Source of the DNA: Allopusillimonas soli
Lineage (GTDB): Bacteria; Pseudomonadota; Gammaproteobacteria; Burkholderiales; Burkholderiaceae_B
Assembly: GCF_004153445.1 (NCBI RefSeq)
Contig: NZ_SDQC01000003.1
Location: forward strand, 1 to 64,000
Direction of reading: 5' to 3'
DNA: 64,000 bases
The notes under the pieces were generated by a model. The model was not told where the DNA came from. It ran no database searches and saw only the letters and a list, made by a program, of their open reading frames with translations. The translations under genes and the position numbers were made by a program. Below are positions 51,931 to 54,923 of this stretch, piece after piece (position 1 is the first letter of the stretch; the number at the start of each line of letters is the position of its first letter).

Positions 51931-52248
51931 GAGTATTGTTCCTCCTTATGGAATCCATGCTTGATCTACGCTGTGCCATATCCGTGTGGGAAGGGCAAGG
52001 CGGCAGACCGCGGAGCGGGTGCCGGGTAACGGCACAGCCGCGTAACAATATCCATAAAAACTGACGAAATGCTTACACGCCGATACGACTGGGGGATTTA
52101 TGGGGTAATCCCCTAACCGAAGTGCTGTCAATGTGCCACACTCGTCGTCCGCATAATCGCCTGTTGTTATATGTATATGTAATTTCCGCCTGTATGCGAG
52201 CCCTCGCCGCCGCCTGCGCAGTGCTCGAAATCCTGCTACCCTTGCACC
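51931..52248. other. Intergenic region between dctP and nlpD-like gene
   Basis: A 318-base divergent region with no convincing gene. It contains the GGGG/CCCC dyad at 52092-52113 and AT-rich stretches (for example at 52160-52180) that may form promoters for the dctPQM operon and the downstream lipoprotein gene. Confidence 0.55.
52092..52113. promoter_or_regulatory. GGGG/CCCC dyad upstream of dctP, copy 1
   Basis: Contains TATGGGGTAATCCCC (52099-52113) and, overlapping it, arms GGGGATT / AATCCCC. Nearly the same 15-mer occurs at 54909-54923 in another divergent promoter region. Candidate site for a shared regulator, about 170 bases upstream of dctP and 135 upstream of the nlpD-like gene. Confidence 0.5.
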
Positions 52249-52995
52249 ATGATGTCCGGCCCGAACTCCGTCTGTACCGTATCTTTTTCAGTCATTCCCG
52301 GCCCCGTCGCCGCGCTGGCGCACCGCACAACGCGACTCACATGGCTATTGTTGCTTGGCGCCATGCTCTGCCTGCTGGCGGCCTGCGGCACCACGCAAAA
52401 GGTGGGGCCCGGATACTACCGCGTACAGTCCGGCGACACGCTAACTCAGATCGCGCGCGAACATGGCCAGACAGTGCATTCGCTGATGCGCATGAACGAC
52501 ATTCGCAACGCCAACGTGCTGCGGGTGGGCCAGGTCCTGAAGGTGGGCACAGGCGGCGCTTCTGCCACCTCGAGCAGCAGCAGCACCAGTACAAGCGCAC
52601 CCTCCCCCGTCCTGCCTCGCCCCGCCAACGCCATCGACATGATCTGGCCGGCGGACGGCAGCGTGGATGCCCGGGCAAAGAAGCCCAGTCCGCACGGAAT
52701 CGTCATTACCAACCGCGCCGGCACCCCCATCAAGGCCGTCGCCGACGGCAAGGTCGTCTACGCAGGAGACGCCTTGCGCGGGTACGGCAATCTGGTCATC
52801 GTGGATCACGCATCCGGATTCCTGACCGTGTACGCGCATAACCAGTCTCTCGACGTCAAGGAGGGGCAGCGTGTCAAGCAAGGCCAGAGGATCGCAGCCA
52901 TGGGCAGCAGCGCAAGCAATCAGGTTGGGCTGTACTTCGAGGTCCGCTACCAGGGCAAGGCGGTGGATGCGCTGCGCTATTTGCCCAGGCGCTAG
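52249..52995 (+). CDS. nlpD: LysM/LytM (M23-like) lipoprotein, NlpD-type amidase activator
   Basis: A 248-residue lipoprotein with lipobox LLAAC, a LysM domain (YYRVQSGDTLTQIAREHGQ) and a C-terminal LytM domain (AVADGKVVYAGDALRGYGNLVIVDH and GLYFEVRYQGKAVDALRYLP). The zinc-binding HxH and Asp residues of active M23 peptidases are not conserved (for example GLYFEV replaces LHFE), so it is expected to activate an amidase rather than cut peptidoglycan. A Ser/Thr-rich linker joins the domains. In many relatives nlpD precedes rpoS; here an ECF sigma gene follows 80 bases later. Confidence 0.9.
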   Translation: MMSGPNSVCTVSFSVIPGPVAALAHRTTRLTWLLLLGAMLCLLAACGTTQKVGPGYYRVQSGDTLTQIAREHGQTVHSLMRMNDIRNANVLRVGQVLKVGTGGASATSSSSSTSTSAPSPVLPRPANAIDMIWPADGSVDARAKKPSPHGIVITNRAGTPIKAVADGKVVYAGDALRGYGNLVIVDHASGFLTVYAHNQSLDVKEGQRVKQGQRIAAMGSSASNQVGLYFEVRYQGKAVDALRYLPRR

Positions 52996-53014: not shown

Positions 53015-53047
53015 CTGAAACGCAAGCACGGCCGGCGGCATCTAATG
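53015..53047 (+). promoter_or_regulatory. ECF-type promoter of the sigma factor gene
   Basis: CTGAAAC (53015-53021), exactly 18 bases, then ATCTAATG (53040-53047), 28 bases before the ECF sigma start. The same two blocks with the same spacing occur on the minus strand at 54860-54892. Confidence 0.7.
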
Positions 53048-53075
53048 CATGTGGAAATGAGCAACATGTGGAGTC

Positions 53076-53786
53076 ATGTATATGCATGCGGTAGCCCCCG
53101 AGTCTCGCCGAGCGGACGAATGCGAATATGAACTGGTCCGGCAGGTCGCCGCTGGCGACGCGCATGCCTTCGAAACCATGATGCGCCGATACAACCAGCG
53201 CCTGTACCGCGCGGCCCGCAGCATTCTCAAGAACGATGCCGACGCGCAGGAAGCCGTACAGGAAGCGTATTGGAAGGCCTACTGCAACATGGGGCAGTTT
53301 CGCGCCCAGGCGCGCCTGTCCACCTGGCTGACGCGCATCGCCGTCAACGAGGCCTTGATGCGGCTGCGGCAAAAGACGCGCCAGGAAGCCCTCCTGGCCA
53401 ATATGGCCAGGGACGTCGTGAACAGGAGCGAAGACCTCATGCAAACGCCCGAACGTGCCCAGGACGCGCCCGATGCCCAGCTCTGGCGCTCGGAATTGCG
53501 GCACCTTATCGAACACCACATCGATGCGCTACCCGCCGGATATCGCAGCGTGTTTCTGCTGCGTGCAGTGGAGGACATGTCGACGCTCGAAGTTGCGCAA
53601 GCCCTGGACATGCCTGAAGCCACCGTGCGGACCCGCTTCTTCCGGGCCAGAGGCCTGCTGCAGGCGGCGCTGGGCAAAGAGATCGAGCTGCGCAGCAGGG
53701 AGGCTTTCTCTTTCGACGGCCTCCGTTGCGACGCCATTGTGCACAATGTGCTTGCACGGCTGGCCGCAAGCCGGCATGGGCACTGA
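53076..53786 (+). CDS. ECF-family RNA polymerase sigma factor
   Basis: A 236-residue extracytoplasmic-function sigma factor. Region 2 contains AFETMMRRYNQRLYRAARSILKN and DADAQEAVQEAYWKAY; region 4 contains LPAGYRSVFLLRAVEDMSTLEVAQAL and EATVRTRFFRARGLL. A 30-residue C-terminal tail extends past the usual end. No anti-sigma factor gene is adjacent. The start is ATG at 53076. It converges on the cupredoxin gene, 24 bases apart, and shares a promoter motif with that operon, so it probably transcribes itself and those genes. Confidence 0.93.
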   Translation: MYMHAVAPESRRADECEYELVRQVAAGDAHAFETMMRRYNQRLYRAARSILKNDADAQEAVQEAYWKAYCNMGQFRAQARLSTWLTRIAVNEALMRLRQKTRQEALLANMARDVVNRSEDLMQTPERAQDAPDAQLWRSELRHLIEHHIDALPAGYRSVFLLRAVEDMSTLEVAQALDMPEATVRTRFFRARGLLQAALGKEIELRSREAFSFDGLRCDAIVHNVLARLAASRHGH

Positions 53787-53810
53787 AACTAAAGCCTGCA
53801 CCCGCTGGTT

Positions 53811-54380
53811 TCAGTCCACCCGCCCTTCCTCAAGGATGCGGGCCACATCCACGAAAGCATCGCGCGCCGCCCTGGGCAATTGCGCATCGTTTGCGTTGCG
53901 CTGGGCCCGGGCCCCGGAATCGGGCGCCTGCACAACGATGCGCCCGACCATGCCCGCATGCTCATGGGGCTTGCAGAAGTAATCGTAGACGCCGGGCACA
54001 CGGAATGTATACGAGAACGACTGCCCCGGCATCAGGTAATCCGAGTCCCAGGCAAGCGCACCGTGCGGAATCCGCAGCGGCTTGCCATTGTCCGGATGGT
54101 AGGCAGTGGCGGTATGGACGTTCCCTGTATCGCGATTGACCCACCGGACCGTCTGCCCAAGCGGCACGAGCAGGCCACGGGGCCGAAACCACACTTCGGC
54201 CCCATTGGCGGTGCCGGCCATGTCGATGTCAATGGCATCGGCCGCCAGGGCCAAGCGCTGGCCCGCCAACGCAGCCAAAGCGCACAGCCCGCCACCTTGC
54301 AGGAGAAGGCGGCGACGCAAGCTGGTCGGTACAACCCGACGCGCTGCCATGCCGGGCACGTTGTCTGGGCGGGTCGTCAT
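53811..54380 (-). CDS. Cupredoxin-domain secreted protein
   Basis: A 189-residue periplasmic blue-copper-like protein. The N-terminus has a signal with an RRRLL motif and a hydrophobic core (GGLCALAALAGQRLALA), possibly twin-arginine type. The cupredoxin domain shows the expected copper ligands: His in GNVHTATAYH, and Cys, His and Met in YFCKPHEHAGM. A Gln/Arg-rich C-terminal tail follows. It overlaps the upstream gene by four bases (ATGA) and is controlled by the same ECF-type promoter. Electron transfer or copper sequestration are both possible. Confidence 0.88.
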   Translation of the reverse strand: MTTRPDNVPGMAARRVVPTSLRRRLLLQGGGLCALAALAGQRLALAADAIDIDMAGTANGAEVWFRPRGLLVPLGQTVRWVNRDTGNVHTATAYHPDNGKPLRIPHGALAWDSDYLMPGQSFSYTFRVPGVYDYFCKPHEHAGMVGRIVVQAPDSGARAQRNANDAQLPRAARDAFVDVARILEEGRVD

Positions 54381-54814
54381 TTTGCCACCCTGGCCTCTTC
54401 GTCAACCGGCACATGCCACAGCACCACATGAATATGCGGTTCCTCCACGCCCGGGTGGCCTGCGTTGTAAACCACGTCAACATGATCCACCGCGCCGCCC
54501 GGGGACGCCAGGTTATCGAGATCCATGCCTGGCTTCATTTCTGAAAGAGGCAGCATATAGATCGTGCTGACGAGTTTGCCCTTGCGATCGTAAGCAAGAA
54601 AGGGGCCGGCCGGCAGTGTTGCCGGATCGACAAACAACTGGCCCATGCCCGGTATGAAGTCGGGCAGTTTGACCAGTGCGCTTACAGCCTTGTATGGCGC
54701 GGCCGGCGGCGCCTTGGCCGCTGTTGCCGCGTGGGCGCCATCGTGGGCGTCCGCCATCAATGGGCTCAGTGCAAGCGCCGCGGCTGCGGCGAATGGAAGA
54801 ACGAGTCTGCGCAT
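54377..54814 (-). CDS. Secreted His-rich protein of unknown function (DUF5602-like?)
   Basis: A 145-residue exported protein. A signal peptide ends at about LMADAHDGAHA, and the next 15 residues are Ala/His-rich. The rest is a compact domain with PDFIPGMGQLFVDP, YDRKGKLVSTIYMLPL and a C-terminal EEPHIHVVLWHVP motif, where HIH could bind a metal. It resembles small secreted domains of the DUF5602/TTHB210 type, but I cannot confirm this without a search. First gene of an operon with the cupredoxin; expressed from an ECF-type promoter. Confidence 0.7.
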   Translation of the reverse strand: MRRLVLPFAAAAALALSPLMADAHDGAHAATAAKAPPAAPYKAVSALVKLPDFIPGMGQLFVDPATLPAGPFLAYDRKGKLVSTIYMLPLSEMKPGMDLDNLASPGGAVDHVDVVYNAGHPGVEEPHIHVVLWHVPVDEEARVAK

Positions 54815-54859
54815 GGCTTATATCTCCAATAGAAAAGAAAAACATCATCGATTTCTACC

Positions 54860-54892
54860 CATTGGATGACGGGCATGCCGTAACTGTTTCAG
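54860..54892 (-). promoter_or_regulatory. ECF-type promoter of the His-rich/cupredoxin operon
   Basis: Minus strand: CTGAAAC (54892-54886), exactly 18 bases, then ATCCAATG (54867-54860), 46 bases upstream of the start codon. Both blocks and the spacing match the element in front of the ECF sigma gene, with one base difference in the -10 part. Confidence 0.72.
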
Positions 54893-54908: not shown

Positions 54909-54923
54909 TATGGGGTTATCCCC
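54909..54923. promoter_or_regulatory. GGGG/CCCC element, copy 2
   Basis: TATGGGGTTATCCCC, one base different from the element at 52099-52113. It lies between the His-rich/cupredoxin operon and the ThDP-enzyme operon. Outer arms GGCAA and TTGCC (54901, 54929) add further symmetry. Confidence 0.5.

Follow-up and report, generated by a model that had tools for sequence, protein, structure and literature searches.

A candidate ECF29-type regulon of Allopusillimonas soli and its promoter element in alpha- and betaproteobacteria

An RpoE8-like (ECF29-type) ECF sigma factor, encoded in the 64,000-nucleotide stretch of Allopusillimonas soli DNA analysed here (the window; NZ_SDQC01000003.1, positions 1 to 64,000), very probably reads the bipartite element GRAAC(G)-N18-(G)CATCYAATG and activates its own gene, a DUF5602-cupredoxin operon and an operon for a membrane protein, a DUF2231 protein and GTP cyclohydrolase I. 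A preliminary description of this DNA had proposed that the sigma factor regulates its own gene and the cupredoxin operon, and comparative sequence analysis leaves this putative control well supported: the element is conserved at both places in many genomes and, by analogy, a transcription start has been mapped behind a like element at rpoE8 of S. meliloti (PMC6180224, available text). The regulon described at that time stands for both of its members and is probably too small, the third operon lying outside the window behind an element with one mismatch. The sigma kind itself (ECF29) was already known; the interest lies in a conserved candidate target set for an orphan group, and the predicted regulon may already have been described in the 2021 ECF classification.

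The promoter element and its conservation

At the sigma gene, the putative ECF29-type promoter (53015..53047, forward strand) comprises GAAAC (53017-53021), an 18-base spacer and ATCTAATG (53040-53047); before the DUF5602-cupredoxin operon (54860..54892, reverse strand) it comprises GAAAC (54890-54886), an 18-base spacer and ATCCAATG (54867-54860). Both copies match CTGAAAC-N18-ATC(T/C)AATG exactly, as had been described, and a scan of the whole genome (4.15 Mb) for CTGAAAC-N18-ATCYAATG returned two exact matches, both of them the window sites. The best two-block match between the two 250-bp upstream regions is 14/15; because 14 of 2000 dinucleotide shuffles score equally well, the window pair taken alone is modest evidence, suggestive only, and it is the cross-genome comparison that makes the case strong.

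The block limits had been drawn somewhat differently from what the aligned sites show. Conservation is concentrated in two blocks, GRAAC(G) and (G)CATCYAATG, with a free spacer, so that the refined element is GRAAC(G)-N17/18-(G)CATCYAATG; of the CT that opens CTGAAAC, the N18 sites conserve the C weakly and do not conserve the T. The -10 at the sigma gene reads GCATCTAATG, one base off the ECF29 GCATCCAA, and that at the cupredoxin operon reads TCATCCAATG; the window -35 sites read TGAAAC, those of same-clade relatives GGGAAC or GAAACG, and the ECF29 -35 is GGGAAC. Judged by its letters, the element represents a variant ECF29 promoter, and the view that it departs from the classic form is largely wrong, at most half right: the AAC core is kept and GGGAAC occurs in many relatives, while the window itself has GAAAC in place of GGGAAC. 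Because the printed S. meliloti rpoE8 promoter ends 9 bases past CATCCAAT, and other entries of the same promoter table give the start as their last letter (PMC6180224, available text), transcription starts would be expected, by analogy, near 53055 for the sigma gene and near 54852 for the cupredoxin operon.

Homologous loci were compared in named genomes, using the best 80 of 195 loci retrieved by DUF5602 alignment, mostly from Alcaligenaceae and Alphaproteobacteria, and in both groups the element is conserved before many of the sigma relatives and DUF5602/cupredoxin operons. Among these best 80 of 195, 55 have a sigma gene no more than 4 kb away, and in 49 of them the element lies in the 280 bp before DUF5602 (the other 6 have no exact element); of the 25 without a nearby sigma gene, 6 have the element there, five of these six being Alcaligenaceae and one a truncated contig (L226) that was counted as having no sigma. 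Outside these upstream regions there are 8 matches in 1.59 million positions. Among the 57 loci that do not belong to the Alcaligenaceae/Burkholderiales set, the coupling of sigma gene and element has a Fisher p of 3e-9, computed on loci that are not mutually independent: the motif-less and sigma-less loci in this group number 17 and, because 15 of them are Mesorhizobium/Rhizobium, the association is not phylogenetically independent. Within the same best 80 of 195, AAC and ATC are separated by 18 bases in 20/20 Alcaligenaceae/Burkholderiales sites (a set in which L196, named as Burkholderiales only, was counted) and by 17 bases in 33 of the 35 others, a spacer difference of one base that holds for most alphaproteobacterial versus betaproteobacterial sites. 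Where an alphaproteobacterial locus has a sigma gene, the three genes mostly run co-directionally as DUF5602-cupredoxin-sigma.

Several DUF5602 loci without an adjacent sigma gene share another upstream stretch, approximately TTAATTTCGTTTGACGAAC with variations (by eye), found in L181, L184, L185, L187-L189, L191-L195 and L200 (Mesorhizobium) and in L197 and L258, suggesting that a different promoter or operator replaced the ECF element there. In Pusillimonas sp. (L199), the region upstream of DUF5602 has TTGACAC as its -35 and keeps the ECF29 -10 GCATCCAATG, which gives a hybrid-looking promoter.

Across 200 genomes of the family, RRAACG-N16-CATCYAAT has 68 exact matches against 17 for a reversed-pattern control (totals summed by hand). 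A sigma gene of this kind follows closely on 22 of the 68, a DUF5602 gene on 19 and the leading gene of the third operon on 3, together 44. The remaining 24 precede none of these three gene kinds; two of them (G095 and G149) stand before a DUF4142 gene that a sigma gene follows, a cupredoxin gene in between being confirmed in G149. By hand count, 52 matches belong to the 56 genomes with a sigma match reaching 113 bits and 16 to the other 144, where one match (in G115) precedes a DUF5602 gene. In the stretches examined, exact copies of the element are missing at several sigma genes of the clade (L150, L151, L153, L156 and L158). The spacing AACG-N17-CATC, with 28 matches against 22 in the control, was rejected. 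So was a promoter within the sigma reading frame, as the motif-like matches repeated there in several relatives (L159, L163, L164, L166, L168 and L170-L172) stem, by eye, from conserved RNK-R...IQ codons.

Neighbouring genes were assigned by Pfam in some cases and by likeness in the remainder. Same-clade sigma genes of Alcaligenaceae (L141, L147-L150) are followed by a ferritin-like gene and in some also by a cytochrome c gene; the ferritin-like neighbour, Ferritin_2 by Pfam in L147 and assigned by likeness in the others, belongs to a cluster of 14 loci; of the five sigma genes named, all but that of L150 are preceded by the element. At L067 (G115:C11, about 171900-172400), a DUF5602 gene with an internal stop has the element in front and, as its neighbour, a sigma-like remnant that an in-frame stop interrupts (by eye); from its sequence, the sigma-DUF5602 module seems to be decaying at this locus.

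The distribution of the element bears on the question of which sigma factor reads it. It might be the promoter of another ECF sigma of the cell, with the sigma gene next to it a mere cascade target: ECF cascades exist, as A. brasilense RpoE6 activates a gene named rpoE8 (PMC12826043, available text), and the overexpression of S. meliloti RpoE8 revealed no targets (PMC6180224, available text). We find this improbable, as the element is absent from 17 of the 18 sigma-less loci outside the Alcaligenaceae/Burkholderiales set (best 80 of 195), the exception being the truncated contig, and genomes that lack such a sigma contain, on average, about one eighth as many exact matches (16 in 144, against 52 in 56). 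We propose instead that the window sigma itself would recognize the element.

The sigma factor and its C-terminal extension

The sigma gene extends over 53082..53786 on the forward strand; its longest frame is 53076-53786, and GGAG at 53070-53073 suits, by eye, the ATG at 53082 better. The product scores 273 bits with PRK11922 (cut-off 204), RpoE8 scoring 323 bits. A quick tree was built from 94 rows, with RpoE8 as the sole ECF29 anchor, on a long branch, and with L209 and L214 (broken or cut off) and RpoE7 omitted; in it the window sigma, its relatives and S. meliloti RpoE8 form one clade. RpoE8 joins the alphaproteobacterial sigmas (89), and all are apart from RpoE6 (ECF26), RpoE5 (ECF15) and Thermus sigmaE (98). 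The sigma of a same-genus genome (L160) is identical to that of Allopusillimonas ginsengisoli (L222).

The protein has a C-terminal extension of about 25 residues, including FSFDGLRCD, with one Cys that is invariant in 37/37 aligned sigmas. The strict F-x-F-x-G-x-R-C motif is present in 82 of 97 rows, the remainder being 4 outgroups, 2 broken or cut sequences and 9 variants that keep the Cys (by eye). A predicted structural model (pLDDT 84, 97 and 80 for the last three blocks; pTM 0.61) places an extra helix (213-232) after region 4, with the invariant Cys at the start of the helix. This helix is covered by no solved relative, and the top 50 Foldseek matches listed are sigma factors and their complexes, the fold saying nothing on the extension.

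No anti-sigma-like family recurs within 3.5 kb of 55 sigma genes, as judged by clustering and by eye in place of anti-sigma profiles, in loci selected via DUF5602. The families present in at least 15 of these loci are the sigma, the cupredoxin, DUF5602 and overlapping frames, the next ones being present in at most 7. ECF29 is also reported to be without an anti-sigma in the available text of PMC6180224. Because an anti-sigma-like gene is not conserved beside the sigma gene, the short extension with its invariant Cys is the likeliest sensing or gating part.

The target operons

The sigma unit and the DUF5602-cupredoxin unit are convergent. The DUF5602/TTHB210-like protein (54377..54814, reverse strand; PF18197, 29.1 bits versus a curated cut-off of 26.6) has a signal-peptide-like start (by eye) and is a relative of PDB 3vg8 (E=3.8e-25); its His residues 111, 120, 127 and 129 are invariant in 14 aligned sequences. 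The cupredoxin (53811..54380, reverse strand; PF00127, 49.2 bits versus a cut-off of 21.2) has a twin-arginine-like N-terminus and the stretch CKPHEHAGM (both by eye), a Cys-x-x-His...Met arrangement of putative type-1 copper ligands. Between the convergent stop codons, an 8-bp inverted repeat, ACTGAAAC...GTTTCAGT (53782..53815), with folding z-scores of -3.3 on the forward and -0.6 on the reverse strand, is a possible shared terminator hairpin.

Directly upstream of the sigma gene lies a LysM-M23 peptidase gene (52249-52995, ActS/NlpD-like), relatives of which were absent from the 40 sigma or DUF5602 stretches searched. The palindrome ATGGGGTWATCCCC is found at 52100-52113 and 54910-54923, 2.8 kb apart, as the only exact copies in the 4.15-Mb genome. 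The copies flank the M23 peptidase-sigma-cupredoxin block, the second being about 17 bp upstream of the -35 of the cupredoxin operon; the pair might be a second operator or the ends of a moved block.

A sigma factor that autoregulates could leave the DUF5602-cupredoxin operon to be driven mainly by other means, for example via this palindrome. Both exact genome copies of the palindrome lie in the window, and 17 DUF5602 loci (15 of them Mesorhizobium/Rhizobium; best 80 of 195) have neither an adjacent sigma gene nor the element; against this, the ECF element stands before DUF5602 in 20 of the 23 Alcaligenaceae/Burkholderiales loci of the same best 80 of 195. A different main driver is in our view unlikely, and activation of the operon by the sigma factor is the reading we prefer.

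When the own genome was scanned with the refined pattern allowing at most one mismatch, one extra site was obtained, at G000:C11:510978-511008 on the reverse strand, with its single mismatch in the -35 block. This third site is located 98 bases before an operon that encodes a 112-residue membrane protein, a DUF2231 protein and GTP cyclohydrolase I. With at most two mismatches the same scan gave 27 matches versus 26 for the control, that is, no enrichment. Eight other genome matches were examined (L003, L090, L092, L094, L096, L098, L106 and L107), of which six were set aside as lying inside open frames; L090 is the third operon itself and L096 lies between genes, 156 bases ahead of a frame of 130 residues.

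The 112-residue protein has 13 matches in the 200 genomes, 10 of them good (at least 125 bits, own genome included). Eight of these 10 have the element upstream with 0-2 mismatches (of 12), and the other two (L273 and L274) lie within DUF5602 operons that are headed by the element; upstream of the three weak matches (L282-L284) the element is absent. Genes of the third operon also occur beside such sigma genes, namely GTP cyclohydrolase I in L154, L161 and L176 (by Pfam) and in L162 (by likeness), and DUF2231 in L145 and L165, and in Roseibium both are found together with DUF5602-cupredoxin. The window genome has one PF01227 GTP cyclohydrolase and one of the PF02649 kind; since the latter enzyme is encoded elsewhere in the genome, the operon GTP cyclohydrolase may be a stress copy.

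Known systems and a regulatory model

RpoE8 of S. meliloti, an ECF29 member (PMC6180224, available text), belongs to the same sigma clade and to PRK11922 and shares the C-terminal F-x-F-x-G-x-R-C; GGGAAC...GCATCCAA precedes its gene and a secreted-protein/cupredoxin pair, and an anti-sigma is absent. According to the same text, rpoE8 has one mapped start behind -35 GGGAAC/-10 GCATCCAA, which is said to equal the cross-species ECF29 motif. The two systems differ in the element (AAC-N17-ATCCAA with GGGAAC in S. meliloti, N18 with GAAAC in the window), in the partner of the cupredoxin (DUF4142 versus DUF5602) and in gene order (sigma-DUF4142-cupredoxin versus convergent units). At the pSymB locus, SMb20593 is the DUF4142 protein and amcY the cupredoxin. 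As far as the available text of PMC6180224 goes, a 126-fold overexpression of RpoE8 revealed no target and did not induce SMb20593, no start was found at the promoter-like site of SMb20593, and amcY was up 2.6- and 3.2-fold in nodules of strains without rpoE8-SMb20593. These S. meliloti results, together with GAAAC versus GGGAAC and the 18- versus 17-base spacer, constitute counter-evidence to the proposed control, as do the mismatch in the third site, the 6 of 55 sigma-bearing loci and the several sigma genes of the clade that have no exact copy, the 24 of 68 family matches before other genes, and the own-genome count at two mismatches, which equals its control.

On the sequence evidence from the window genome, the two blocks could be a two-part operator for a repressor or an activator instead of a sigma promoter. 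We consider this very improbable: the blocks are unlike each other and lie 17-18 bases apart across a free spacer, a start was mapped at the like element of S. meliloti rpoE8, and the element fits the published ECF29 consensus (PMC6180224, available text). A chance likeness of the two upstream regions, which the 14 of 2000 shuffles would allow, is next to negligible given that the element is conserved across genera and classes. An ECF29-type promoter is what we take both sites to be.

The alphaproteobacterial operons of Devosia, Aminobacter, Microvirga, Nitratireductor, Roseovarius and others (among L190-L257) comprise the same three genes, with the element before DUF5602 in most, and differ in being mostly co-directional, in the N17 spacer and in the -35, which is usually GGGAACCTTT. 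On Thermus thermophilus pTT27 (L265), a DUF5602 gene adjoins, and is divergent from, the sigmaE/anti-sigma genes; close to it is a Ferritin_2 gene, a type that in Alcaligenaceae likewise follows sigma genes of the window kind. T. thermophilus sigmaE controls TTHB210. It differs from the window sigma in matching PRK13919, in falling outside the clade, in its RskA-like anti-sigma gene and in the absence of the C-terminal extension. Among open-licence papers, no literature on TTHB210 or DUF5602 was found.

ECF26 sigmas (S. meliloti RpoE1/3/4/6) are alike in that the RpoE4 regulon includes a pseudoazurin (PMC3511301, PMC6180224; available texts), and differ in their -35 GGAAT/-10 CGTC promoters (PMC6527743, available text), in the membrane anti-sigma encoded next door (PMC6180224, available text) and in the tree, where RpoE6, the sole member tested, is outside the clade. 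By promoter, missing anti-sigma neighbour and tree, the window sigma is ruled out as ECF26. In CorE-type and other extension-bearing ECF sigmas the extension likewise replaces an anti-sigma; the CorE-type extensions are cysteine-rich in the available descriptions, whereas that of the window sigma, at about 25 residues, has one invariant Cys. A 2022 review lists ECF29, in its available text, among the groups with regulatory extensions, with the mechanism given as 'others' (PMC8999054). A. brasilense RpoE8 was rejected as a parallel, being described in a different operon kind (PMC12826043, available text).

We propose that the sigma factor would be kept inactive through its own C-terminal extension and that an oxidant or a copper-related signal, acting at or through the invariant Cys, would release it. 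The released sigma would direct RNA polymerase to its own promoter and to the two operons, and positive feedback on the sigma gene, by autoactivation in the cell, would amplify the response; the promoter is the one part of this model to which the sequence lends direct support. A wider reading, possible and in our judgement rather doubtful, is that ECF29 sigmas are one-component switches, in which the Cys extension is itself the sensor of copper or an oxidant and releases the sigma to activate a conserved envelope-redox regulon (cupredoxin with DUF5602/DUF4142, DUF2231, ferritin-like protein, cytochrome c and a second-type GTP cyclohydrolase), with promoter spacers that differ by one base in alpha- and betaproteobacteria.

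The candidate ECF29 regulon is seen in two bacterial classes, and the likeliest signal-sensing part of its sigma factor can be named. DUF5602 proteins are tied to ECF sigma genes of two distinct lineages, and Castellaniella, Allopusillimonas, Devosia and Microvirga offer test hosts where S. meliloti yielded nothing.
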